NCBI GenBank assembly: GCA_937920475.1
Contig: CALEUX010000009.1
Location: 1-64,000, forward strand
Length of the DNA: 64,000 nucleotides
Direction of reading: 5' to 3'
Source: an uncultured Marinilabiliaceae bacterium
GTDB taxonomy: Bacteria; Bacteroidota; Bacteroidia; Bacteroidales; Marinilabiliaceae
Under the pieces are notes generated by a model that saw nothing but the letters and a program-made list of their open reading frames with translations, did not search any database and was not told the DNA's origin. Positions 21,061 through 39,371 of the stretch are shown piece by piece. The translations under genes were made by a program, and so were the position numbers. The first letter of the stretch is position 1. Every line of letters begins with the position of its first letter.

Positions 21061-22773
21061 ATGATGAAAATAAAACTAAACATTGCTCAAAAACTGATTT
21101 ATGGCTTTGGCCTGATTCTGATTGTGGTATTCCTTAACAGTTTATTGACACTGTTTACTGTTAACAGAAGTACAAGCCTTAATAATCGGGTGACAGCCAT
21201 TTATGGGCCTACGGTTCAATCACTGGGCGATTTGGACATGCTTATTACCCAAAGCAAAATGCTTATACGTAACTGGGTATTTATTGATAAACAACCCGGA
21301 ACCCCAGACAAGCTCAGGCTTGTGGAACTCCATAATACTGATTTCACTACTATTAAAAACAGATTGAACGATTTGACAAAAGAGTGGAATAATGAAACCG
21401 ACCAGGAAGCTCTCGGTTTAATCATCCATAAAATTGACTCCCTGTTTACCATGCATAAGTATATTATGGATAACCTCAACTCCTTTGATGCTTACGAAGA
21501 TGCTTTCATTATGTTTGAGGTAGAAGATATGGTAATGGAAGGCGGAACAATCATCACCCTTACCGATGAAATTACTGCCAATATTCTTGACCTTTCAACC
21601 AAATATAACCAAGGCAACAATGTTGCTCTTTCCGATATGAAGAGGGCGTTTTCAAGATTAACATGGGTGGTAATAATTATGGGGCTTATTTTATTAGCTG
21701 CCTCTTTTGCCATCGCCTGGTTGCTTTATTCTTCTATTGTTCATCCGCTTATTAAGGGTGTTGATTTTGCCAAGGCCATTGGAGCCGGCAATTTGAATGC
21801 TAAAGTGGAAGTGAACCAGGATGATGAAATTGGGATTTTAGCCAAAGAGTTGAGTAATATGGCTGAAAACCTGAAAAACACCGTGGTAACCATTAAAGAT
21901 AATGCCTTGAACCTGGTTAATTCAAGCGAGCTGTTAAAAACCAGTTCTCTTCAGTTATCACGCGGATCGGCCGATCAGGCGGCTTCAGCCGAGGAGGTTT
22001 CTACTTCTATTGAGGAAATGGTTGCCAATATTGACCAAAATACCGACAACGCCATTCAAACCGAGAAAATTACGGTCGAAACAGCTAAGGATGTTAACGT
22101 AGCCAACCAATTAAGTTCCGAAGCAGCCAAAGCCATGACAGCCATCTCTGAAAAAATATCCATGATAAGCGATATCGCCTTTCAGACCAATATTCTTGCG
22201 CTTAACGCTGCAGTGGAAGCAGCCAGAGCCGGAGAGCATGGCCGTGGATTTTCTGTTGTAGCCGCCGAGGTTCGCAAATTGGCCGAACGAAGCAAAACTG
22301 CTGCTGATGAAATTGTTACTCTTGTAAATAAAGGGTTAAAAGTTTCTCAGGAAGCAGGCAACAAAACAAAACTGCTTGTTCCCGATATTGAAAAAACAAC
22401 TGTGTTGATTAAGGAGATTGCCGCTGCAAGCATGGAACAAAAAACTGGTGCCGACCAAATTAACCTGGCCATGCAGCAATTAAATATGATTACACAGGAG
22501 AATGCCTCCTCGTCTGACCAGTTAACTCAAAGCTCTGATTTATTATTACGATTGGCGCAAAATCTTCAGGAAGCCGTAAGTTATTTCAGTATTGGCAACG
22601 AAGAGGCTGAAAATAAAAAGCGATCAGCAGAATCGGGTAAAACAGAAACAAAAACGCAGGAGACAAACAAACCAAAAACAGCCAAAAAAACAACCTCTGC
22701 AAAGCAACGTCCGGTTCAGGATCTTTCAAATCTGGAAAAAGAATTTGACATGGATAATTATGAAAAGTTTTAA
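21061..22773 (+). CDS. Methyl-accepting chemotaxis protein with C-terminal pentapeptide
   Basis: The 570-residue receptor has TM1 (about 11-32), an alpha-helical external domain of roughly 165 residues (32-198), TM2 (201-223), HAMP (224-276) and the long cytoplasmic signalling coiled coil. The hairpin tip, which binds CheA and CheW, is conserved ([20 protein letters not shown], about 377-396). After residue 524 comes a flexible Lys/Thr-rich linker of some 40 residues ending in NYEKF, which fits the xYxxF-type tether that recruits CheR in some bacteria. First gene of the operon through CheB. The ligand is unknown. Confidence 0.95.
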
Positions 22774-23138: not shown

Positions 23139-23504
23139 ATGGCTAAAACCGTTTTAATTGTTGATGACTCCGAAAGTATCCGCGAAGTCGTAAATTTTAC
23201 TCTGCAAAATGAAGGGTATGACGTTCTGGTGGGCATAGATGGAGAAGACGCACTCAAATTTTTGGATGGTCGCCACATCGACATTATTATCACCGACTTG
23301 CACATGCCTAATTTAGATGGGTTGGGTCTTATCAGAAAGGTTCGGGAAATGGATAACTACAAACATATTCCCATTCTGTTTCTGACCACTGAATCGCAGG
23401 CAGCGAAAAAAATGGAAGCCAAAGAAGCCGGCGCCACCGGTTGGATTATAAAACCATTTGTACCTGCTAAACTTTTATCAGCTATTTCAAGGGTTATTAG
23501 ATAA
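23139..23504 (+). CDS. cheY: CheY-like single-domain response regulator
   Basis: A 121-residue receiver domain with the acidic pair D9/D10, phospho-acceptor D53 (IITDLHMPNLDG), Thr83/Thr84 and the conserved Lys105 in IKPF. It has no output domain. It lies 14 bases after the STAS gene and 8 before the Hpt gene, so it should take phosphate from the downstream CheA, or from the small Hpt protein. Whether it controls gliding, pili or another output cannot be read from here. Confidence 0.95.
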   Translation: MAKTVLIVDDSESIREVVNFTLQNEGYDVLVGIDGEDALKFLDGRHIDIIITDLHMPNLDGLGLIRKVREMDNYKHIPILFLTTESQAAKKMEAKEAGATGWIIKPFVPAKLLSAISRVIR

Positions 23505-23512
23505 TTAAAGCT

Positions 23513-23851
23513 ATGCTTGAAAAAATTAAAAAGCAATTCTACAAAGATACCATTAAAGAGTTGCTCTTAATAAATGCTAAATTATCTGAAGAATCAATAC
23601 ATCCCAACGAAAGCATTTCGCTGGTAAATCGTATTTTTTCAATTACCCATCAAATTAGCGGAACAGGACCGATGCTTGGTTTTAACAACACATCAAAGAT
23701 TTCAAAGAAAGTTGAAAAAACCTTTTATGAAATAAGAGTAGGCGAAAAAGAACTTACTGCACCCATTATTATGCAAACCAGGCGCGCCCTGGAATCCATA
23801 ATTGACTCCATGAATCTGGAGTTTAACAGCAGTATGGTTATTTCAAAGTAA
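23513..23851 (+). CDS. Stand-alone Hpt-domain protein resembling CheA P1
   Basis: 112 residues forming a four-helix Hpt-like bundle. His46 lies in THQISGTGPMLGF, which matches the CheA P1 box HSLKGGGAMFGF encoded by the next gene at many positions, but the usual Lys three residues after His is Ser. It may be a duplicated P1 domain that passes phosphate between CheA and CheY or competes with P1. It is small, soluble and without any other domain, and lies eight bases after cheY. Confidence 0.8.
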   Translation: MLEKIKKQFYKDTIKELLLINAKLSEESIHPNESISLVNRIFSITHQISGTGPMLGFNNTSKISKKVEKTFYEIRVGEKELTAPIIMQTRRALESIIDSMNLEFNSSMVISK

Positions 23852-23894: not shown

Positions 23895-25946
23895 ATGATA
23901 GATAAGTTTAGAGCGAAGTTTGTTGAAGAGTCCTCGGATAATATCCACGATCTGGAAGAAGCGCTCCTCCTTCTGGAAAAGGACATGAGAAATAAAGAAC
24001 TTATTGAACGCATTTTCAGGGCCATGCACTCCCTGAAAGGCGGCGGAGCTATGTTTGGCTTTAACCATTTGAGTGAATTTACCCACCATCTCGAAACCAT
24101 TTTCGATTATGTTCGTGGCGGAAAGCTTCAGGTGAGCACGGAACTTATTTCACTTACATTCTCTGCTATTGATCAAATAAACTTCCTCCTTAAAACCGGA
24201 GACCTTACCCGTGAAGAAGATTTAACCGAGCAAAAAGCGTTTATCAAAAAACTGCAATCATTTTTATCAGGATCCGAATCTTCCTCGCAACCGGAAGAAA
24301 AAAAAGAATCTCTTTCAGATGTTTCTTCTGGTCCAGAAACCAATGAGAAAACATTTCTGATAAGCTTTCTTCCACATGAAGACCTGTTGAAGAACGGTAC
24401 CAACCCGTTTTATCTGCTCGATGACCTTCATGCTATGGGCAATGCTATTACTCTTGCGTTTGCTCATAAAACACCTTCGCTTGATTTGTTCGAAGTCTCT
24501 ACCAATTATTGTTTTTGGCAGGTAATTTTAAGCTCTGCAGATTCGATTAACGAAATCAGAGATGTGTTTATTTTTGTTGAAGATGAGTGCGAACTTCATA
24601 TTGACCAGGTTTCTGAAACTTCAATTGTTAACCGACCCGAAGTAAATGCCCTGATTGAAAAAGCTTTGCAAACAAACACCCAACTATCTGTCGACGATTT
24701 TAAGCAAAGTGAATGGACCCGAACCGAGGAACAAAAAGACACCGATGATAAAAAGAAAGCCTTTTTAAAAGAACATAAAATAGCCAGTATCAGGGTTGCT
24801 TCGCATAAGATTGACGAGTTGGTAACTCTGGTAAGCGAAATGGTTACCATTCAAGCACAGTTGTCGTTATATGCCGAAAATAGTGGAGAGCCCACCATAA
24901 TGGCACTTACCGAAAATATACAGAAACTTACCCGTCAGTTGCGCGATAACGCTTTTGACGTAAGCCTGATACCTTTACAAAGCGAATTAATGCGATTTCA
25001 AAGGTTGGTACGCGACCTGTCGAAAGAACAGAAAAAGGATATTGATTTTATAATTGAAGGCGGTGATTTGGAGTTGGATAAAAACATTGTAGAGCATTTA
25101 ACCGATCCTCTGCTTCATATTTTGCGAAATTCCATCGACCATGGAATTGAACTACCACAAGAACGAATTGCAGCCGGCAAATCGCCCAAGGGAACTATTA
25201 TTTTTAAAGCCTATCACTCCGGAGCAAACGTAATTATTGAAATTACCGACGACGGAAAAGGGATTGACCCTGAATTTATTAAACAAAAAGCCATTAGTAA
25301 AGGAATTATTGAGCAGGGAGCCACCCTTGATAAAAAGGAAATTTTTGACCTGCTCTTCATTAGTGGATTTTCAACCCGCGAATCTGTATCAGACTTGTCA
25401 GGCCGAGGCGTTGGTATGGATGTGGTAAGAAGAAAGATTGCAAACATAAGGGGCGAAGTTTCGTTGGAATCAGAAACCGGCAAAGGAACCATTATTTCAA
25501 TTCGTCTGCCACTTACACTTTCGATTATTGATGGATTATTGGTTAAGGTTGCCAATAATCAATATGTAATTCCTATTTCGGCCATAGAACAAATTTTCGC
25601 TTTTGATCAATCACAAATGAAAAATACATTCAACAATGTGGTTGTTATCAACAACGAACAAATACCATATATTATTCTGCGCGACCTTTTTAACGAACCT
25701 AAACACGACGATGATAAATTCCAGATGGTTTTGATTCGTAGCGAGGAGAAAAAACTAGGAATCATCGTAGATGCTGTAATTGGTGAATACCAAACAGTTG
25801 TAAAACCTATGGGCCGGTATCTGAAAAAGCAGGAAATTATTTCGGGAGCTTCAATTATGGGCGATGGAACAATTTCCTTGGTAATTGATACCTCACGATT
25901 ATTCCAATCAAGGAGAAGCAGAAAAGTAACCCATGTTGAAAACTAA
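23895..25946 (+). CDS. cheA: Chemotaxis histidine kinase CheA
   Basis: The 683 residues follow the standard order: P1 Hpt domain with phospho-His45 (1-105), a P2-like docking domain (about 152-245), P3 dimerisation helices (297-365), P4 ATPase (about 370-540) with LHILRNSIDHG, TDDGKGIDP and GRGVGMDVV, and P5 CheW-like domain (545-675) beginning at IDGLLVKV. It forms the core array with the MCP and the two CheW proteins and phosphorylates CheY and CheB. All catalytic boxes look intact. Confidence 0.97.
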   Translation: MIDKFRAKFVEESSDNIHDLEEALLLLEKDMRNKELIERIFRAMHSLKGGGAMFGFNHLSEFTHHLETIFDYVRGGKLQVSTELISLTFSAIDQINFLLKTGDLTREEDLTEQKAFIKKLQSFLSGSESSSQPEEKKESLSDVSSGPETNEKTFLISFLPHEDLLKNGTNPFYLLDDLHAMGNAITLAFAHKTPSLDLFEVSTNYCFWQVILSSADSINEIRDVFIFVEDECELHIDQVSETSIVNRPEVNALIEKALQTNTQLSVDDFKQSEWTRTEEQKDTDDKKKAFLKEHKIASIRVASHKIDELVTLVSEMVTIQAQLSLYAENSGEPTIMALTENIQKLTRQLRDNAFDVSLIPLQSELMRFQRLVRDLSKEQKKDIDFIIEGGDLELDKNIVEHLTDPLLHILRNSIDHGIELPQERIAAGKSPKGTIIFKAYHSGANVIIEITDDGKGIDPEFIKQKAISKGIIEQGATLDKKEIFDLLFISGFSTRESVSDLSGRGVGMDVVRRKIANIRGEVSLESETGKGTIISIRLPLTLSIIDGLLVKVANNQYVIPISAIEQIFAFDQSQMKNTFNNVVVINNEQIPYIILRDLFNEPKHDDDKFQMVLIRSEEKKLGIIVDAVIGEYQTVVKPMGRYLKKQEIISGASIMGDGTISLVIDTSRLFQSRRSRKVTHVEN

Positions 25947-25971: not shown

Positions 25972-26424
25972 ATGGAAAAAGCAAATAAAACCATATTATC
26001 ATTTCAAATCAACCAGAACGAGTTTGCTGTTGATGCGCTTCAGGTTGTTCATATTCTCGAAGTTCCGCCGCTCATTACCAGTGTGCCCAATACATCTGCT
26101 TTTATGAAGGGCGTTATCAACCTGCATGGAAATATTGTTCCCGTGGTTGATATGAGATTAATTATGGAAGAAGAGATTGGAGTTACCAATGCCGATAATG
26201 CCATTATCGTTATTAACCCTGTTGATGCCCAGGATGCCCGTTTTGGCATTATGGTGGATATGGTAAAAGAAGTTTTAGAGATAGATACTGCCAACCTGAA
26301 AGAAACCATTCTGGAAGGGAAAAAAGGATTGATTGAATCATATGAAGGCACCTTATTGTACAATGATACCTTCATTCATATAATTGACATCAATCATTTG
26401 GCCGAAATAATTGAAAACCATTAG
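25972..26424 (+). CDS. cheW: CheW coupling protein, first copy
   Basis: A 150-residue CheW domain: ILSFQINQNEFAVDALQVVHILE begins the first beta-barrel, and PNTSAFMKGVINLHGNIVPVVDMR is the conserved middle segment. The second half has IMVDMVKEVLEI. It links CheA P5 to the receptor tip. Start is the ATG 25 bases after cheA; the second CheW copy follows after 15 bases. Confidence 0.95.
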   Translation: MEKANKTILSFQINQNEFAVDALQVVHILEVPPLITSVPNTSAFMKGVINLHGNIVPVVDMRLIMEEEIGVTNADNAIIVINPVDAQDARFGIMVDMVKEVLEIDTANLKETILEGKKGLIESYEGTLLYNDTFIHIIDINHLAEIIENH

Positions 26425-26439
26425 GATAACCAAAACAAT

Positions 26440-26928
26440 ATGGCTTCTGTACTGAATTCATACCTCACGTTCAAAATCGGAGAAGAAGTTTTTGGCGTAA
26501 ACGTGGCAAAAGTAATGGAGATTCGTGAGTATCAGGCTCCAAAACCTCTGCCACAACCACTGCCATTTGTCTCCGGTGTAATTGAATACCGTGACGAGAT
26601 TATTCCATTAATTGATACCGGTATCAAGTTTGGAATGTCTCCTATCACTATACAATCCGGCACCTGCATCGTTATCCTGCAGTTAATCAGCGATACGCTT
26701 GGAAAAACCTATAGAGTTGGTATTTTGGTTGATACCGTTGCCGATGTTTTGGAGTGTGACGATACAAACATGAAAAACATCAACGACGATTATAAGCCCC
26801 ATTATATCTATTCTACCTGCCAAACCGACAACCATTTGGTTTTTATTCTGAATGCCGATGTCGTTTTCAGTCAGAAAGAAATTATTGGGATGCTCGATAT
26901 GGTCAATAAATTAAAAAAACAGGCCTGA
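26440..26928 (+). CDS. CheW coupling protein, second copy
   Basis: A 162-residue CheW paralogue. FKIGEEVFGVNVAKVMEIREY and PFVSGVIEYRDEIIPLIDT are the family landmarks. It differs clearly from the first copy (longer, two extra residues around the central turn, MKNINDDYKPHYIYS tail), so the pair is not a recent duplication. Two CheW types could build mixed arrays or bind different receptors. The next gene, cheR, starts three bases after its stop. Confidence 0.93.
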   Translation: MASVLNSYLTFKIGEEVFGVNVAKVMEIREYQAPKPLPQPLPFVSGVIEYRDEIIPLIDTGIKFGMSPITIQSGTCIVILQLISDTLGKTYRVGILVDTVADVLECDDTNMKNINDDYKPHYIYSTCQTDNHLVFILNADVVFSQKEIIGMLDMVNKLKKQA

Positions 26929-26931
26929 TAA

Positions 26932-27801
26932 ATGGAGAAAACCGTAAATACATCGGGAAGCTTCGATTGCTTTAAAGCGGAACTTTCGGAAAGTGATTTC
27001 CAGGTTTTCAGCCGGTTTATTTATTCCGAATACGGAATTAAAATGCCGCCAATTAAGCGAATTATGCTTCAAGGCAGGCTGTTGAAAAGAATCAGAGAGC
27101 TCAACATGGGCTCTTATTCTGAATACAAAGAATACTTTTTCAGTAAAGAAGGTCAGGATAAAGAATTACTACAGTTTTTAAACGTAGTAACCACCAATAA
27201 AACAGATTTTTTCAGGGAACCGGTTCATTTTAATTTTTTAAACGATACGGTACTTCCTGCTTTCAGAAGCCAAAGCACAAACGGCCAACCGTTTAAGGTT
27301 TGGAGTGCCGGTTGCTCAAGCGGCGAAGAACCATATACCATATCAGTGGTTCTTAACGAATTTGAACGACTCAATCCTAACTTTAAGTTTGATATTCTTG
27401 GTTCTGACATTTCAACCCAAATGCTTGAAAAAGCGGCCAAAGGCGTTTACCAGGCTAACAAGCTTGTTACAGTACCGATGGAACTGAAGAAACGATATTT
27501 TCTAAAAAGCAAGGATCCCCATAACCAAACAGTAAGGGTGCACCCGCTTTTGCAAAAAAACATTCGGTTAACCTATCTTAATTTGATGGATAACCTATAT
27601 TCAATAAAAGAAACATTCGATGTGGTTTTCTGTCGTAATGTGTTAATCTATTTCGACAGACAAACACAAGAACGGGTGATTAACAAGCTTTGTTTGCAAC
27701 TTAAACCGGGAGGTTATTTTTTCATCGGACATTCCGAGTCGCTGTCAGGCATGAATGTACCTCTTGAACACATAAAACCAACCATATTTAAAAAACTGTA
27801 A
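26932..27801 (+). CDS. cheR: Chemoreceptor methyltransferase CheR
   Basis: 289 residues. The N-terminal helical domain ends in TTNKTDFFREP, then the SAM-binding site VWSAGCSSGEEPY, DISTQMLEKAAKGVY and the catalytic-domain strand VVFCRNVLIYF. The beta-subdomain loop (KSKDPHNQTVRV) is as long as the one in pentapeptide-binding Salmonella CheR but lacks its glycines. It adds methyl groups to receptor glutamates. This is the CheR expected to work on the operon's own MCP. Confidence 0.96.
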   Translation: MEKTVNTSGSFDCFKAELSESDFQVFSRFIYSEYGIKMPPIKRIMLQGRLLKRIRELNMGSYSEYKEYFFSKEGQDKELLQFLNVVTTNKTDFFREPVHFNFLNDTVLPAFRSQSTNGQPFKVWSAGCSSGEEPYTISVVLNEFERLNPNFKFDILGSDISTQMLEKAAKGVYQANKLVTVPMELKKRYFLKSKDPHNQTVRVHPLLQKNIRLTYLNLMDNLYSIKETFDVVFCRNVLIYFDRQTQERVINKLCLQLKPGGYFFIGHSESLSGMNVPLEHIKPTIFKKL

Positions 27802-27836: not shown

Positions 27837-28736
27837 ATGACGAACATTTCTGACAAACAGCTTTTGAAGGAGTTAAAAACCAAACTCGAAGAGCGTAAGA
27901 AATATGAGGAAGAGATTAGCCTGCTATCACAGGAGCTTCAAACCGTTACTCAACGTTTTAAAGAATCGGAAGCATTAAAAAGCCACTTTATTTCAAATAT
28001 ATCCAATGAAATAGTAAACCCGTTTACTTCCATTCTTGGTTTATCCAAGTCCATCCTTTCTGTTGAGAAAAACGACTGGAAAAAAGTGGTAAGCATGGTT
28101 GCATTAATTCATAGCGAAGCTTTTAATCTCGATTTTCAGCTAAAAAACATTTTTGTGGCCGCAAAAATTGAAGCTGGCGAAGTGGTACCAAACATTGCGA
28201 AGGTTAACGTTCGCAACATTGTACAAACAATGATTGAATCATTTGGCCTTGTGGCACGCAAAATGGCCATCGACATCGAGTTTCAATTCAACATTGAATA
28301 CGGATTTGGCAAAAACTTCTATTTTAAAACCGATAGCGAAAAATTAAAGCTTATCCTGAGCAACCTCATGAATAATGCTTTAAAATACAGCTATAAGGAT
28401 AGCAAAGTTATTATTACTGTTTGGGTAGATGAAGATATTCTAAACATTTCGGTACAAGACTTTGGCACAGGTATTTCTGAAAAAAATCAAAAAGTTATCT
28501 TCGAACGCTTCAAGCGACTGGATTCAGGCATTAACTCGATTAACCGTGGACACGGTCTTGGGCTATCCATAACAAAAGCCTTACTGGATGTTATGGGCGG
28601 TACCATTGAAATCGAAAGTAAAAAAGGAGAAGGATCAACCTTCTATGTCAGAATTCCGGAAGCAAAAAATATTGTTGAAGGGTTCAGTGGTGAAGGAAAT
28701 GATATTTTCTTCGATGGAGATGATGAGATTTTTTAA
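27837..28736 (+). CDS. Histidine-kinase-like protein lacking the phospho-His
   Basis: 299 residues, no membrane span or sensor domain. A coiled coil (about 1-45) leads into a DHp-like helix that reads FISNISNEIVNPF (51-63): the normally invariant His of the S-H-E box is Asn57. The ATPase half keeps its boxes: LSNLMNNALKYS (N box), VQDFGTGIS (G1), FERFKRL (F) and GHGLGLSITKAL (G2). It may bind ATP but should not autophosphorylate at the standard site. It could serve as a scaffold, an allosteric partner of CheA, or a phosphatase. Confidence 0.9.
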   Translation: MTNISDKQLLKELKTKLEERKKYEEEISLLSQELQTVTQRFKESEALKSHFISNISNEIVNPFTSILGLSKSILSVEKNDWKKVVSMVALIHSEAFNLDFQLKNIFVAAKIEAGEVVPNIAKVNVRNIVQTMIESFGLVARKMAIDIEFQFNIEYGFGKNFYFKTDSEKLKLILSNLMNNALKYSYKDSKVIITVWVDEDILNISVQDFGTGISEKNQKVIFERFKRLDSGINSINRGHGLGLSITKALLDVMGGTIEIESKKGEGSTFYVRIPEAKNIVEGFSGEGNDIFFDGDDEIF

Positions 28737-28747
28737 GAAAGCATTAG

Positions 28748-29218
28748 ATGGACCAATATTTACAACATTTTTTGTATCCTTCTACGCTGTTTGCCAGTAA
28801 AGAACCTTACATGGTTAAAACCATTCTTGGTTCATGCGTGGCAATATGTCTGTACGATCCGGTACTGAAAGTTGGAGGCATTAATCATTATATGCTGCCC
28901 AACTGGAACGGGAACGATCTGGCATCGCCAAAGTACGGAAATATTGCCATCGAAAAGCTGATTGAACGAATGGTGTTTTATGGATGTAAAAAAGAAAACC
29001 TTCAGGCGAAAATTTTTGGCGGTGGCGACCTTATTGCTGCCGACAGAAGTGCCATGATGATAGGAGAGCGCAATATTCGGGTAGCCCGGTTAATACTGGA
29101 AGAAAAAAACATTCCCGTAATCGCCTCAAGTACCGGAGGACGAAAAGGTCGGAAAATATTGTTTTTCACCGATACTGGTGAGGTTCGGCATAAATTTCTG
29201 GATAAAAAGGAGTATTAG
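28748..29218 (+). CDS. cheD: Chemoreceptor glutamine deamidase CheD
   Basis: 156 residues with the catalytic Cys30 in ILGSCVAICLYD and His47 in GGINHYML, 17 apart as in Thermotoga CheD, plus the KIFGGGDL segment. CheD turns receptor glutamines into glutamates so that they can be methylated, and in some systems it binds CheC. No cheC is seen in the window. It lies 11 bases after the kinase-like gene. Confidence 0.95.
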   Translation: MDQYLQHFLYPSTLFASKEPYMVKTILGSCVAICLYDPVLKVGGINHYMLPNWNGNDLASPKYGNIAIEKLIERMVFYGCKKENLQAKIFGGGDLIAADRSAMMIGERNIRVARLILEEKNIPVIASSTGGRKGRKILFFTDTGEVRHKFLDKKEY

Positions 29219-29242: not shown

Positions 29243-30322
29243 ATGGAGAAAAAAATCAGGGTATTAGTTGTTGATGATTCGGCAGTGGTTAGGCAGAGCC
29301 TCACCTCAATTCTGGAGTCTGACCCCCAGATTGAAGTTATGGGTACTGCCGCCGATCCGCTTATTGCCGTGAAAAAAATAATGAAGGAAGTCCCTGATGT
29401 AATTACCCTTGATATTGAAATGCCGCGAATGGATGGACTTACCTTCCTTCGTAAAATAATGTCGCAACACCCTATTCCCGTTGTCGTTATTTCGTCGTTA
29501 ACCAGCCAGGGAACCGAAGTTGCCATGAAGGCTCTTGAATATGGCGCTTCCGAAATTATTGGGAAGCCGGCCATGAATGCTGCACAGTTTTTTAACGAAT
29601 CTAAAATTATGCTGTGCGATGCTGTTAAAGCAGCCTCGCAGGCTAAACTGTCTCGTCTGAAGATTATTTCCACACCTACGGTTGAGTTGGTTAAACCCAA
29701 ATATTCGGCCGACATAATTCTTGAGAAAGCCTCACTAAAAAGCAGGATCGTTGATACTGAAAAAATAATTGTTTTGGGGGCTTCCACCGGCGGCACCGAA
29801 GCCATTCGTCTGTTATTACGTAATTTGCCTTCACGTATGCCTGGGATTGCCATTGTACAGCATATGCCCGAAGGGTTTACCAAATCATTTGCCAACAGCC
29901 TTAATGCCAATTCAGAGCTGGAAGTAAAAGAAGCCGAAGATGGCGACCGGCTTTATCAGGGCCGCGTGCTCATTGCTCCCGGAAACCATCACATGTTGCT
30001 TAAAAGAAACGGCAAAGAATACTCCGTAGAAGTAAAAGAGGGACCACTGGTTAACCGGCATCGCCCGTCGGTTGATGTGCTTTTCCGCTCGGCAGCCAGG
30101 TATGCGGGCCAAAATGCCACCGGAATTATACTCACAGGAATGGGAGCCGATGGAGCCAAAGGGTTATTGGAACTAAAAGACGCTGGCGCCAATACCATTG
30201 CCCAGGACCAACAGACTTCCGTTGTTTTTGGTATGCCCAAAGAGGCGATTAAATTAGGTGCAGCTGATGAAATTCTTGGTATAGATGCCATTGCTCCATT
30301 CCTGATTAAAAAATTTCACTAA
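29243..30322 (+). CDS. cheB: Chemotaxis methylesterase CheB
   Basis: 359 residues. A receiver domain with phospho-Asp57 ([12 protein letters not shown]) is followed by a linker and the esterase domain with the Ser nucleophile in [10 protein letters not shown], His in [12 protein letters not shown] and Asp in [11 protein letters not shown]. It removes receptor methyl groups when phosphorylated by CheA. Last gene of the first operon; about 500 bases with a repeat separate it from the second operon. Confidence 0.97.
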
Positions 30323-30831
30323 CCTTTTCATTATATTTCCGTATTATTACGGACTTATAGTTTGACAAAAAATATTTAAAAAACGTTTTAAATATTTGAT
30401 TAGAATACCGAATAGTTTATTAATTTGTTTCTAATCATTTAAACAATTCTAACAATTTAAAAAATTGTCATAAACAATTGTTATTAGGGTGTTTATATAA
30501 CTTAAACAACACCAAATTCTCAAAATTAAAGGGAAAAATGTTTAAGAAACTGTTTAAATTTAGATATAAGATTTTTAGAAGCGAAGCATCGCGTAGTCCC
30601 GAGAATCGGGATAAGATTGATTGATAAGATTTATAAGTTTTTATAGATGTCTTGGCATTTTTCCAGACTTGTTTATCCGTCTAATCATCTTAATAAAAAT
30701 TTCAATATTTAATTTAAACAGTTGCTAAGCTTTTTATTGTTGGTAAAAGATATATAAAGCAAGAAAGTTAAATCCTTTGTTCGTTTTAACCACCAGGCTG
30801 TTATCAAAAAACCTTAATTAATTTTTTAAGG
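30323..30831. other. Gap between the two signalling operons, with repeat copy 2
   Basis: A short imperfect terminator-like hairpin (TCCGT/ACGGA, 30338-30353) and a palindrome ACAATTT/AAATTGT (30452-30468) are followed by the repeat at 30546-30724. The last 100 bases should carry the promoter of the second operon, but I see no exact -7 box. Confidence 0.5.
30546..30724. repeat. Dispersed inverted-ended repeat, copy 2
   Basis: The ends are perfect 13-base inverted copies (AACTGTTTAAATT at 30548-30560 and AATTTAAACAGTT at 30711-30723). The middle holds a CCCGAGAATCGGG hairpin that corresponds to those in copies 1 and 3, but the rest of the middle has diverged. It belongs to the same family as the elements at 1143 and 56721. 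Confidence 0.7.
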
Positions 30832-33582: not shown

Positions 33583-34407
33583 GTGAATTTCAGTATAACT
33601 GATATCAAGGAATTGACCTTATCCATGCTGGGCTATCCCAATATGGACTATACCAACTATTCATTATCTTTTTTGAAAAGAAGGTTGGCAATAGTTTTCA
33701 CAAGCTTAAACATAAGGCGAAAAGACCAATTTCTTGAAATGCTGAAGAAAAAGGATTTCAGAGATCAGGTAATCACTCGCATGCTGGTTGATAATACTGA
33801 GATGTTTAGAGACCCGGCTTTTTGGCGTATGCTAAGAGATAAAATTGTAAAGGATTTGCCCTCCAATAGTTCCATATGGTTTCCGTGCGAAAGCAGTGGA
33901 GAAGAAGTTTATTCATTATCCATTATTCTTAATGAGCAAAATTTTGCATCCCGATTTAAATTAATTTGCAGCAACCCATCATCAGAGAAATGTAATGCTA
34001 TTAACCAAGGTCGGTTAAACGGAAAGCACTTCGATTTAAATCACACAAATTACAGGCGCTTAGAAGAAAATGATTTCTTCGATTCATATTTCACTATACA
34101 GAACGGCCATCTTATTGTTTGTGAAAAATTAAGAGAAAATGTAAATTGTGTTCACGGAAGTGTTTCTGACACCATACCTTCAGGAGTTGTGTCGCTTATA
34201 TTATTTAGAAATGTCTCAATATATTACAATCATCGCCAGGCAACCTCGATTTTTGATTTATTGTATGAAAAACTAATGCCGGGAGGTTATCTCGTTATAG
34301 GAGTTAAGGAACAACTCCCCGAAAAAATTGCCGACAAAATGATAGTAATCGACGAAACAGAAAAAATTTATAAAAAACCTTTGCCGCGAACCAATGGATT
34401 ATATTAA
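33583..34407 (+). CDS. Degenerate CheR-like protein
   Basis: 274 residues from a GTG start; an in-frame stop lies just upstream and the next ATG would cut into the conserved helical part. DNTEMFRDPAFW matches the CheR entry segment, but the SAM site reads WFPCESSGEEVYS instead of xxAGCSSGEE, the acidic DIS strand is CSNPSS, and the CRNVLIYF strand reads FRNVSIYY. So it keeps the fold but probably not SAM binding. It may dimerise with, or regulate, the intact CheR encoded just before it. The frame overlaps the next gene by 14 bases. Confidence 0.78.
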   Translation: MNFSITDIKELTLSMLGYPNMDYTNYSLSFLKRRLAIVFTSLNIRRKDQFLEMLKKKDFRDQVITRMLVDNTEMFRDPAFWRMLRDKIVKDLPSNSSIWFPCESSGEEVYSLSIILNEQNFASRFKLICSNPSSEKCNAINQGRLNGKHFDLNHTNYRRLEENDFFDSYFTIQNGHLIVCEKLRENVNCVHGSVSDTIPSGVVSLILFRNVSIYYNHRQATSIFDLLYEKLMPGGYLVIGVKEQLPEKIADKMIVIDETEKIYKKPLPRTNGLY

Positions 34408-34978
34408 ATCAGACAGAAATTTTAAACTCATTGTTTTGGGTGGTTCTGCAGGAAGTTTTTCTGTGGTATCAAAAATTTTGTCTCAATTAAAACCCGATTT
34501 TAAAATACCATTGGTTCTTTCGCTGCATCGGTTAAAACACGTAAGGTCGGGGTTGGTTGAAAGCCTCAGTTATAAATCGGCCATTGAAATCATTGAACCC
34601 TGCGATAAAGACAAAATCAATAACAACTTTGCATATCTGGCGCCCTCAAACTACCACCTTTTTGTTGAATTCGATGGAACACTGTCTTTGTCAACGGAAG
34701 AGTCGAACAACCATAGCCGACCTTCCATCGACTATACTTTATCGTCGGCAGCTTATGCCTACCGTGATAAAACATTGGGAATTCTGCTTACCGGAGCCAA
34801 TCGCGATGGGGCCCAGGGGTTAAAAGATATAGCCGATCACAACGGATATACCATTGTGCAGGACCCGAAAACCTGCGATATTGACACTATGCCCCTGGCT
34901 GCCTTACGATTGTTTACCCCCAACCAGATTCTGACGCCCGATCAAATTGTGCAATTTTTAAACAGCCTACCACAATGA
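34394..34978 (+). CDS. CheB-type methylesterase domain without receiver
   Basis: 194 residues forming only the esterase domain. The likely triad is Ser18 (GGSAGS), His45 (LSLHRLK) and Asp138 (GANRDGAQG). The spacing agrees with the E. coli enzyme to within a few residues. Without a receiver domain it cannot be switched by CheA in the standard way and may be always active or be gated by a partner. It overlaps the degenerate CheR gene by 14 bases and the next gene by four, a sign of tight translation coupling. Confidence 0.87.
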   Translation: MDYIKSDRNFKLIVLGGSAGSFSVVSKILSQLKPDFKIPLVLSLHRLKHVRSGLVESLSYKSAIEIIEPCDKDKINNNFAYLAPSNYHLFVEFDGTLSLSTEESNNHSRPSIDYTLSSAAYAYRDKTLGILLTGANRDGAQGLKDIADHNGYTIVQDPKTCDIDTMPLAALRLFTPNQILTPDQIVQFLNSLPQ

Positions 34979-35757: not shown

Positions 35758-38370
35758 ATGCCTGTTAATACCAACAAAATAAAAGAATGGAGGAAACTAT
35801 TGTCCCTTAAGGAGGTTTCCTACTCACAGAAATTCATTCTGTTTTCTTCTGTGATTTTTCTGCTTATTCTCATCTGGTCGGGCTTTCTGGCATTAAAAGA
35901 AGCCAAGCTTTCATTATTAAATATTATTGCCCTTCATAAAACAGTTTTAGTCTGGTTTACAGATTCTCTGGTACTTGCCTTGGCATTTTCCGGCATTGTT
36001 TACTATAATTTGCTGAAAAACAAGACTCAAAAACTGAGAAATGAAATTGCTGTTTTAAATGAACGCATTACACATAACATTAATCTGGCTAATAATTTAA
36101 AGCAGGCTAAATGGGATAAGCTCAAATCAAATGGAGATATTTTATCCCAAACCCTATTAGATTTGGGTGAAAATATAAAAGAAAGCAAAAAAAGAGAAGA
36201 GGAACAAAATTGGATAACCCTGGGTAAAGACCAAATATCGGAACTCCTTCGCAATGCTCATAATCTGGAAGACCTTTCTGTTTCTGTGTTAAAGGCGCTT
36301 ATCAATTACATGGGTGGTATTCAGGGAGCATTTTATCTCGAACAAAATAATATTTTGAAGCGAACTGGGATGTATGCCTATGGCCGCCGTCGGTTCGAAT
36401 ACAATGAAATACCTATTGGGAAGGGATTAATAGGTGCTGCCGCCTATGAAAAAGCACTTATTTTTCGGTCTGAAATACCCGATGATTATTTTACCATTAC
36501 CTCAGGTTTATTAGGAGAACAAAAGCCCAAAAGTATTTTACTGATACCGCTTTTACAGGAAGAAGCTCTTCAGGGAGTTCTGGAAATCGCATTTCTCGAA
36601 AACCGAATTCCCCGGTTTAAAATTAGTTTTGCCGAGGAAGTTGGATCCATAATTGGTCAAACCATATACAACCTGAAGATTACCACCCGTACCGAAATGC
36701 TTCTTAAAGAATCGCAGGAAATGACCAGCACTCTCAAGAAAAATGAAGAGCAGCTACGTCAAAATGCCCGCGAAATGATTGAAGCCCAGGAAGAATTGGA
36801 GCGCAGCAATCAAATGCTTGAAAAACAAATTCAAGAGGTAGCCAATTCACAAAAGAAACTGGAAGCTCTGCTCACCAATGCCTCTGAGTTTATTTCAATC
36901 TACGACGAGAATCAGGAGCTGGTATTCGAGAGTCCTTCGGTAAAACGAATATTGGGTTATTCCGACAATGACATCGTAACTGGTATGGATCCTGATGTTT
37001 TAACCCCCCGTGGACTAAAAACCATCAACCAATTATTCCAATACTTAATTGATACTCCGGGAGGAGAGCAAACAGCACAATACACATACCTTAGAAAGAA
37101 CGGTGAAAAACTTTTCCTCGAAACCAAAGGGAAGAACCTTCTGCACGACTCCGCTATTCGCGGTATCATCTTTAACACTCAGGACATTACTGAGCGAAAA
37201 CGGGCCGAGAAAGAGGAGCGCATGAAAAGCCGCATGCAAAGTTTGTCTGAAAACTCTCCGGATATGATTATCCGCATCAACCTGTTAGGGAAACTTGTTT
37301 ATGTAAATCCTGCCGTCACCAGTTTTATCGATTTACCAGCAGCCGACCTGGTTAAGAAAAGAATTGTGGATCTTGAAATTGACCCACGCTTTATCGATTT
37401 CATGCAAGAAACGCTGGCCTATGTTAAAGAACAACAACAACAAATAATTTCCGAAGTGGCCGTTAGTTCTCAAAATGGAGAACGAATTATGGAAATAAAG
37501 GCAATTCCGGAACTTGGCGAAGAAGGTGAATTAGAAACCATTCTTTTTGTTGCTCATGATATGACCGAGTTCAAGAAAATTGAACAGGAAATTAAAGAGA
37601 AAAACAAAAAGATTTCGGATAGTATCAATTATGCCCAACGAATTCAAACGTCTATTTTACCCGACACTCGTCTGTTGCAGGAATTCTTCCCCCGGTCATT
37701 CATTTTCTATAGACCAAAGGATGTGGTGAGTGGCGATTTCCCATGGTTTTTCCGTAAAGACAACATTTACTATATAGCTGCCGTGGATTGTACCGGACAT
37801 GGCGTGCCAGGGGCTCTCATAAGTTTTATCGGGCACTTCCTACTCAATAACATCGTAAGTTTGGAGAACAACCTCACAGCATCTCAAATTCTTGACAACC
37901 TTCATCTTGAAGTCAGAAGTACGCTAAAGCAAGATCAGGAAGGAGCTTTAGGCCGCGATGGTATGGATTTGGCTCTTTGTAAAATCGACCCGGATAATCA
38001 GGTTTTGGAATTCTCAGGAGCCCACCGTCCACTTTATTATTTACGGAAAGGCGAATTAACAGAATATCAAGGCACCCGAAAGGGCATTGGAGGTATTCCT
38101 TTGGCAAAAAAAGTAGAGAAAGACTTTGAAAACCATATTATTCATTACCAAAAAGGTGATCAGATTTTCATTTTTAGTGATGGACTACCCGACCAGTTGG
38201 GCGGCCCCGAGCGGAAAAAATATCAGACCAAAAGGATACGTGAAGCCTTAACCGAAAAACCAGATGCATCAATGGCTCATTTCTCTCGATACTTTTCAAT
38301 GGACTTTTATGAATGGTTGGGCGATGAAAAACAAGTTGATGATGTACTTTTGATTGGAATTGAATTGTAA
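35758..38370 (+). CDS. Membrane GAF/PAS-regulated SpoIIE-type phosphatase (SiaA-like)
   Basis: 870 residues: two TM segments (about 25-46, 63-83), coiled coil, GAF (about 150-305), PAS (370-480), PAS (490-600), a short helix with SINYAQRIQTSILP, and a PP2C/SpoIIE domain (640-870). The metal-binding motifs are present: VVSGDF, AAVDCTGHGVPGALIS, GRDGMDLALC, IFSDGLPDQ and VDDVLLIGIEL. By analogy with SiaA of Pseudomonas it should dephosphorylate the SiaC-like protein two genes on. GAF and PAS domains would set its activity. The SGDF motif is followed by PWF where YWF is more usual. Confidence 0.9.
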   Translation: MPVNTNKIKEWRKLLSLKEVSYSQKFILFSSVIFLLILIWSGFLALKEAKLSLLNIIALHKTVLVWFTDSLVLALAFSGIVYYNLLKNKTQKLRNEIAVLNERITHNINLANNLKQAKWDKLKSNGDILSQTLLDLGENIKESKKREEEQNWITLGKDQISELLRNAHNLEDLSVSVLKALINYMGGIQGAFYLEQNNILKRTGMYAYGRRRFEYNEIPIGKGLIGAAAYEKALIFRSEIPDDYFTITSGLLGEQKPKSILLIPLLQEEALQGVLEIAFLENRIPRFKISFAEEVGSIIGQTIYNLKITTRTEMLLKESQEMTSTLKKNEEQLRQNAREMIEAQEELERSNQMLEKQIQEVANSQKKLEALLTNASEFISIYDENQELVFESPSVKRILGYSDNDIVTGMDPDVLTPRGLKTINQLFQYLIDTPGGEQTAQYTYLRKNGEKLFLETKGKNLLHDSAIRGIIFNTQDITERKRAEKEERMKSRMQSLSENSPDMIIRINLLGKLVYVNPAVTSFIDLPAADLVKKRIVDLEIDPRFIDFMQETLAYVKEQQQQIISEVAVSSQNGERIMEIKAIPELGEEGELETILFVAHDMTEFKKIEQEIKEKNKKISDSINYAQRIQTSILPDTRLLQEFFPRSFIFYRPKDVVSGDFPWFFRKDNIYYIAAVDCTGHGVPGALISFIGHFLLNNIVSLENNLTASQILDNLHLEVRSTLKQDQEGALGRDGMDLALCKIDPDNQVLEFSGAHRPLYYLRKGELTEYQGTRKGIGGIPLAKKVEKDFENHIIHYQKGDQIFIFSDGLPDQLGGPERKKYQTKRIREALTEKPDASMAHFSRYFSMDFYEWLGDEKQVDDVLLIGIEL

Positions 38371-38412
38371 TTATATTTACGTAAATTTAGACACTATTTT
38401 GAAATAAACGTC

Positions 38413-38976
38413 ATGGAAAAGGAGAACCAAGGGTTTCTGGAGTTTGCTTATCAACTCTACAAAACCATGAAAACCAATGAAATAAATTTGGTTTACGAAG
38501 GAGAAGTCACTCAGGAAATAACCAAAACCTTTACTTCTCTTACCGAAAAAAGCCTTTCTAAAAGTGCGGAATCAAACACCGTGCAAAAGAAGGTTTTTAA
38601 TGTAATGGTAGAATGTTTACAAAACATCAGTAAACATGCCGACTCTTTAAACGATGAAGACGAAGAACGCAGAGGAATTGTAATGGTGAGCAAAGGTGAA
38701 GACAGCTACAATATCATTACCGGCAATGTTATTAAAAATGAAAAAGTTCCTGAGCTGAAAAAAAGCCTTGAGCTCATCAACAGTCTCGATAAAGAAGGTC
38801 TCTCAACCCTGTTTAAACAACAGATAAAAGAAACAACCATTTCGGATAAAGGAGGCGCCGGACTTGGATTAATTGATATTGCAAAAAAAACGGGAAGTAA
38901 ATTAACTTACCAGTTTAAAGAGCTTAACGAGAATGTCTCCTTTTTCATTTTAACATCTACCATTAAGAGAAACTGA
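38413..38976 (+). CDS. siaB: SiaB-family protein kinase
   Basis: A soluble 187-residue protein with a GHKL-type ATPase pattern: VMVECLQNISKHA as N box and GGAGLGLIDIAKKTGS as the glycine box. The family, named after SiaB of Pseudomonas, phosphorylates SiaC on Thr. Here it lies between the SpoIIE phosphatase and SiaC genes, so kinase, phosphatase and substrate form a complete switch. There is no sensor domain, so input should come through the phosphatase or a binding partner. Confidence 0.88.
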   Translation: MEKENQGFLEFAYQLYKTMKTNEINLVYEGEVTQEITKTFTSLTEKSLSKSAESNTVQKKVFNVMVECLQNISKHADSLNDEDEERRGIVMVSKGEDSYNIITGNVIKNEKVPELKKSLELINSLDKEGLSTLFKQQIKETTISDKGGAGLGLIDIAKKTGSKLTYQFKELNENVSFFILTSTIKRN

Positions 38977-38990
38977 TAAAATTAAGCACC

Positions 38991-39371
38991 ATGAACAATA
39001 TAAACATCAAAGGTACTGATGATACCCCTTCTGTAATTCTTGACAAGGATAAGGGTTTGTTTGAAATTTCTGGAAGATCCTTACCGGAGGATGTAAATAT
39101 GTTTTATGAACAAATTCTGGACTGGATTGACGAATATGCCAAAAGTCCCAACGACAGAACAGAGTTCAACTTTAAACTGGAATATTTTAACACGGCTTCT
39201 TCAAAAGTCATTCTCGATATTCTTCTTAAATTTGAGGAAATCGTAGAAAATGGAAAAGAAGTGGTAATTAAATGGCATTACCATGAAGATGAGGAAGATA
39301 TGCTGGAAGCTGGCGAAGAATATGCTGATATAGTAGAAATTCCTTTTGATTACGTGGTTTATAATCAATAA
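38991..39371 (+). CDS. siaC: SiaC-family regulatory phosphoprotein (DUF1987)
   Basis: 126 residues with a STAS-like fold: SVILDKDKGLFEISGRSLPED near the start in part, and FKLEYFNTASSKVILD. Thr68 lies in the FNTASSK motif and falls at the same position as the phosphorylated Thr of Pseudomonas SiaC. Unphosphorylated SiaC binds and activates the diguanylate cyclase SiaD there. No GGDEF protein is encoded in this window, so its binding target here is open. The next gene is a large ABC transporter, 24 bases on. Confidence 0.9.
   Translation: MNNINIKGTDDTPSVILDKDKGLFEISGRSLPEDVNMFYEQILDWIDEYAKSPNDRTEFNFKLEYFNTASSKVILDILLKFEEIVENGKEVVIKWHYHEDEEDMLEAGEEYADIVEIPFDYVVYNQ

Follow-up and report, generated by a model that had tools for sequence, protein, structure and literature searches.

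A conserved kinase-like protein with asparagine at the phospho-histidine position, encoded in a chemosensory operon, as a candidate receiver phosphatase

The locus and its kinase-like protein

The window (the whole 64,000-nucleotide stretch of DNA that was analysed) carries on its forward strand a chemosensory operon whose features are collected in Table 1. One of its genes encodes a pseudo-histidine kinase, PHK, which the initial annotation had placed between cheR and cheD; Pfam bears this out, with CheR upstream and CheD then CheB downstream. The intergenic gaps calculated from the coordinates are 35 bp (cheR-PHK), 11 bp (PHK-cheD) and 24 bp (cheD-cheB), and the operon's CheA is encoded by a gene separate from that of PHK.

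Table 1. Coordinates in the window of the chemosensory genes, of PHK and of its sequence motifs
Feature	Coordinates	Strand	Basis
CheY, single receiver domain, proposed PHK substrate	23139..23504	+	Pfam Response_reg
Hpt-like stand-alone protein	23513..23851	+	Pfam Hpt 21.9 bits, just below cut-off 24.6
CheA (Hpt, dimerisation, ATPase, CheW domains)	23895..25946	+	Pfam
CheW, first copy	25972..26424	+	Pfam
CheW, second copy	26440..26928	+	Pfam
CheR methyltransferase, immediately 5' of PHK	26932..27801	+	Pfam
Pseudo-histidine kinase (PHK, P0001), 299 aa	27837..28736	+	ORF, Pfam, predicted structure
Codon 57 (AAT, Asn) at the phospho-His position	28005..28007	+	Aligned to HK853 His
E58-I59-V60-N61: ExxN motif retained, basic residue at position 60 lost	28008..28019	+	Sequence; residue roles from excerpts of PMC3510030
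N box (residues 173-185)	28353..28391	+	Sequence, family alignment
G1 box (residues 208-213)	28458..28475	+	Sequence, family alignment
F box (residues 222-225)	28500..28511	+	Sequence, family alignment
G2 box (residues 238-244)	28548..28568	+	Sequence, family alignment
CheD, immediately 3' of PHK	28748..29218	+	Pfam
CheB (receiver + methylesterase), second possible substrate receiver	29243..30322	+	Pfam
Terminator-like hairpin 3' of cheB, weak (sites in region: 13 found vs 9.1 expected)	30338..30353	+	

PHK is a soluble protein made up of a helix or coiled coil (residues 1-45), a DHp domain (46-113), a CA domain (114-276) and an acidic-aromatic tail (277-299), and in the predicted structure the N-terminus is a single long helix that continues into DHp. 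The HATPase_c match is strong (E 9.3e-27), whereas the HisKA match (18.3 bits) falls below its cut-off of 26.9. As had been claimed, the N, G1, F and G2 boxes are all present, and they are conserved across the orthologues; the claimed lack of a sensor part likewise agrees with Pfam, which found none and gave no PAS match at E up to 1. There was also no Pfam match to a CheC, CheX or CheZ domain, nor to the P1 Hpt, P3 dimerisation or P5 CheW-like domains of the CheA type.

The structure was modelled using AlphaFold2 with 36 orthologues (pLDDT 78, pTM 0.69), the ATP lid (224-239) and the tail being unsure, and the conformation of the model may reflect training data. Its best Foldseek matches are HK853-RR468 complexes, which align along some 228 residues (Z about 23) and point to a DHp-CA fold; DivL, with Z 23.9, is tied with HK853.

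Several other features of the region were recorded. The acidic-aromatic C-terminal tail of PHK (28665-28733), whose last residues fit [DE][EDQ][ILV]F in 79/128 full-length relatives, is possibly a docking peptide. The chemoreceptor at 21061-22773 has the C-terminal end ...DNYEKF, which we take to resemble the CheR-binding pentapeptide. A second extra CheR-like protein (33583-34407) matches a CheR model only, and weakly; its SAM-binding loop appears altered in a by-eye comparison with the CheR at 26932, and it is possibly a pseudo-methyltransferase. It is followed by a CheB methylesterase domain without a receiver (34394-34978). A SpoIIE-type phosphatase, a SiaB-family kinase and SiaC, together a partner-switch module, lie beyond the che genes in the same orientation (35758-39371).

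Asparagine 57 and the spread of the family

The DHp helix of PHK, FISNISNEIVNPFTSIL, contains the motif F-I-S-N-I-S-N57-E58-I-V60-N61-P62. When aligned with Thermotoga HK853 (PDB 2c2a/3dge), N57 falls on the phospho-His, E58 on the Glu that follows it, V60 on Arg and N61 on Thr, confirming that Asn stands at the conserved DHp His position. The initial annotation had allowed that most orthologues might have His here. After the PHK orthologue sets were merged and reduced to distinct sequences, Asn57 was found in 130/130 and His in 0/130, and the Asn is thus not a single-strain change; with Asn in every orthologue read, sequencing error is ruled out as well. The residue is also present in 110/110 loci drawn from near genomes and a named genome collection, some species being common to the two parts of this set (L001-L030 and L031-L110); the nearest named relatives are Alkalitalea, Natronoflexus, Alkaliflexus and Geofilum. 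Further loci from a search of the order, in which 50 of 60 PHK copies were read and the other 10 left out of the residue counts, gave Asn57 in 46/46, Glu58 in 45/46 and Asn61 in 46/46. A phospho-His shifted nearby was considered: H50 is on the same helix and conserved in 126/130, but its place is seven residues N-terminal to the site.

Other kinases have kept the His. Kinase-like ORFs in the same loci, a convenience sample from PHK loci rather than a whole-genome census, carry it in 62/62 rows with a residue at the site (63 rows in all), as do 29/29 of the best non-PHK matches of the phylum search. The same baseline separates PHK at two nearby sites. Position 60 is never R/K in PHK (0/130; it is V, I, N or Y) compared to R/K in 61/62 kinases, and position 61, four residues after the His site, where HisKA phosphatase activity calls for Thr or Asn, is Asn in 130/130 compared to T 55, N 5, S 1 and G 1 in the 62 kinases. 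Residues of the ATP boxes are near invariant, for example N176, N180 and G210 (each 130/130). Mean entropy in PHKs is 0.62 and 0.77 bits in the DHp helices versus 1.34 bits in CA, although this contrast is only suggestive as orthologues are set against a mixture of paralogues. DHp helix 2 has invariant polar residues (D99, Q101, N104), from which nothing is concluded because the comparison kinases are mostly unrelated and position 99 is Glu even in HK853.

All 43 sampled PHKs lie on one side of a branch in a maximum-likelihood tree (support 100/97), and the loss of the His looks, on this tree, like a single, old event. Decay of the gene is ruled out by five close pairs in which dN is much lower than dS (about 0.001-0.03 versus 0.12-0.99); judged from these rates, purifying selection on PHK is strong. 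In 60/60 loci conservation is higher for PHK than for CheA, and CheY is the most conserved protein of the operon (median 92.5% identity).

PHK was found in 59 of the 247 genomes sampled from the order, as 60 copies, G569 having two copies with a CheD each. Among 296 genomes of the phylum, of which three, one being the window's genome, belong to the same order, only the window's genome scored >200 bits, the next best reaching 171; a phylum-wide family is therefore unsupported. Since CheA occurs in 84 of these 296 genomes, the family appears to have arisen within its order. No description of it was found in the open-licence literature searched, which comprised mostly titles and the beginnings of abstracts.

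Company with CheD and scarcity of known phosphatases

The gene order CheR-PHK-CheD was observed in 76 of 80 loci with flanks; in the remaining 4, one neighbour was not found and PHK is close to a contig end. In the order sample CheD is immediately 3' of 55 of the 60 PHK copies, which suggests that PHK is coupled to CheD. Three of the five exceptions (G496, G413, G523) appear at contig ends, and the other two (G406, G508) are from the same family. The che operon of G406 (L170, L193) is scattered, with PHK still beside cheR and cheD on another contig; the gene after PHK resembles NAD kinase, judging from its translation. A His-bearing kinase is encoded directly upstream of PHK at two loci (L141:2425-3894, minus strand; L175:346-2070, plus strand), and these kinases are possible partners of PHK. 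CheA and CheD are both present in 59/59 PHK genomes, and 8 CheA genomes and 9 CheD genomes of the sample are without PHK.

Known CheY-P phosphatases are rare in the same company. CheZ, CheC and CheX were each found in 0/61 near relatives in searches that did detect positive controls. Within the order sample, CheZ was found in 0/67 CheA genomes, CheC in 2/67 and CheX in 3/67. The CheC/CheX genomes are G490 and G503, both without PHK, and G365, in which PHK is on one contig and CheX on another, near a different, larger CheA. The proportions carrying CheC or CheX, 1/59 PHK genomes versus 2/8 CheA genomes without PHK, differ with a Fisher p of 0.036 that is uncorrected for relatedness and rests on three genomes. 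Base composition gave no sign of contamination in these genomes, the G490 contig being only 3.2 kb. G490 retains the same cheR-cheD-cheB cluster without PHK and encodes a CheX-like protein elsewhere. It also has a short kinase, P0002, without a sensor and with the His present, divergently oriented upstream of cheR (L186:4355-5071, minus strand). However, 6 of the 8 CheA genomes without PHK are also without CheZ, CheC and CheX, so such an absence alone does not imply a substitute, and the argument is weakened to that extent.

A phosphatase reading and its alternatives

Three roles had been suggested initially for PHK: an ATP-binding scaffold, an allosteric partner of CheA or dephosphorylation of a receiver. 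Receiver dephosphorylation has the most support from sequence, because ExxN is kept, kinase-supporting residues are lost and CheZ, CheC and CheX are nearly absent. We put at about even the chance that PHK evolved from a histidine kinase into a response-regulator phosphatase that binds ATP but is dead as an autokinase, CheY-P being its most likely substrate; if so, it may have become an enzyme that switches a chemotaxis-type signal off. Properties that we infer for it are nucleotide binding, dimerisation, phosphatase activity, the identity of the substrate and control by nucleotide or CheD.

In this mechanism, a histidine kinase would have lost autophosphorylation and retained the reverse reaction. 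The intact CA domain would bind ATP or ADP, a dimer would form via DHp, and a receiver in its phosphorylated state would dock on DHp helix 1, the most likely candidate being the CheY of the operon and CheB another possible one. Asn61, perhaps with Glu58, would position a water molecule for hydrolysis of the aspartyl phosphate, and PHK would thus do the work of CheZ, CheC or CheX in a chemosensory pathway without them.

The residue roles come from CrdS, as described in the excerpted text of PMC3510030; its residues 371, 374 and 375 correspond to positions 57, 60 and 61 of PHK. There, the H371A variant is still a phosphatase, giving a CrdA~P half-life of 2.6 min compared to 53.5 for CrdA~P alone and 0.7 with the wild type; full kinase activity requires that residue 374 be basic; and phosphatase activity requires N375, as N375A does not dephosphorylate CrdA~P. 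The retention of Glu58 in PHK (129/130 distinct sequences) would speak against a phosphatase, as the equivalent CrdS residue is required for the kinase and not for the phosphatase (PMC3510030, same excerpts). On the other hand, CheX acts through both the Glu and the Asn of its ExxN motif (PMC3510030, same excerpts), from which it can be conjectured that Glu58 might be catalytic.

The main alternative, less likely than not, is that PHK is a sensor resembling DivL, which would bind CheY~P or CheB~P without hydrolysis and whose bound state would alter the activity of CheA, CheR or CheD in feedback or adaptation. Its best argument is DivL itself, the pseudo-histidine kinase studied in most depth, which ties as the top structural match, has the same DHp-CA core without the His and, in the available portions of PMC4211667, binds DivK~P and is neither kinase nor phosphatase. 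That DivL even stabilises DivK~P would, by analogy, count against a phosphatase. PHK is moreover grouped with the adaptation genes cheR, cheD and cheB, and stays beside cheR even in the scattered operon (L170). Conversely, ATP binding is weak in DivL whereas the ATP-box residues are kept in PHK, PHK has no PAS domains, which are the source of the preference of DivL for DivK~P (both DivL properties from the same portions of PMC4211667), and the phosphatase-type Asn61 is invariant.

We consider it quite improbable that PHK acts in trans or in a heterodimer, its CA domain phosphorylating the His of the stand-alone Hpt protein, of CheA or of a His-bearing kinase. The ATP boxes are intact, an Hpt-like protein is encoded in the operon, and L141 and L175 have a His-bearing kinase gene next to PHK; but the Hpt protein was found by BLAST in only 21/80 loci (others may have been missed through divergence), position 60 lacks the basic residue that supports kinase activity, and neighbouring His-kinases are no constant feature of PHK loci. 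Least probable is a purely structural role, in which PHK would be a scaffold that connects CheR and CheD with the receptor array and would bind ATP only for folding or as a switch. Such a scaffold would fit the fixed cheR-PHK-cheD order and a docking function of the conserved tail, but it does not account for conservation in PHK being highest in ExxN and in the helices that dock the receiver.

Relation to known systems

On sequence criteria, PHK is a conserved, lineage-wide pseudo-histidine kinase. It shares the DHp-CA fold, the N, G1, F and G2 boxes and the ExxT/N motif with bifunctional HisKA kinases (HK853, CrdS, NtrB), and differs from them in lacking the phospho-His, the basic residue at position 60 and a sensor domain and in its place in a che operon. 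The laboratory mutant H139N of NRII (NtrB) has the same His-to-Asn change and is reportedly still a phosphatase, but there it is one engineered residue in a sensor, whereas PHK is a natural family. With CheC, CheX and CheZ, PHK would share its proposed role, and with CheX also the ExxN motif, but it derives from a histidine kinase and has no Pfam match to any of them. In other bacteria cheC occurs in the neighbourhood of cheD, and PHK likewise adjoins cheD.

DivL of Caulobacter is similar in having a kinase fold in which the phospho-His is replaced and which is conserved in a lineage. According to the available portions of PMC4211667, its residue at this site is Tyr, or Ala in one species, it carries PAS domains, it acts with DivK/CckA in the cell cycle and it is not a phosphatase; PHK, in contrast, has Asn, no PAS, retained ATP-box residues and a place in a che operon. 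A Caulobacter hybrid kinase without the His is mentioned in the literature excerpts consulted, and a pseudokinase with a truncated CA domain, as excerpted in PMC9491836, is no close parallel to PHK.

The wider claim, to which we lend somewhat less than even belief, is that a histidine kinase of Bacteroidales-type bacteria gave rise, once, to PHK as a further class of CheY-P phosphatase, which took the place of CheC/CheX/CheZ in these bacteria and is coupled both to CheD and to the ATP/ADP state. If true, the off-switch of a chemosensory pathway would be a kinase run in reverse only. How the signal is ended in pathways without CheZ, CheC and CheX is a question in many bacteria to which PHK may offer an answer: in one bacterial order it is conserved, embedded in the operon and equipped with residues fit for that task. 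Beside DivL, PHK would be a second pseudo-histidine kinase that is stable in evolution and, if it is a phosphatase, a natural, lineage-wide counterpart of the kinase-off/phosphatase-on mutants made in the laboratory.
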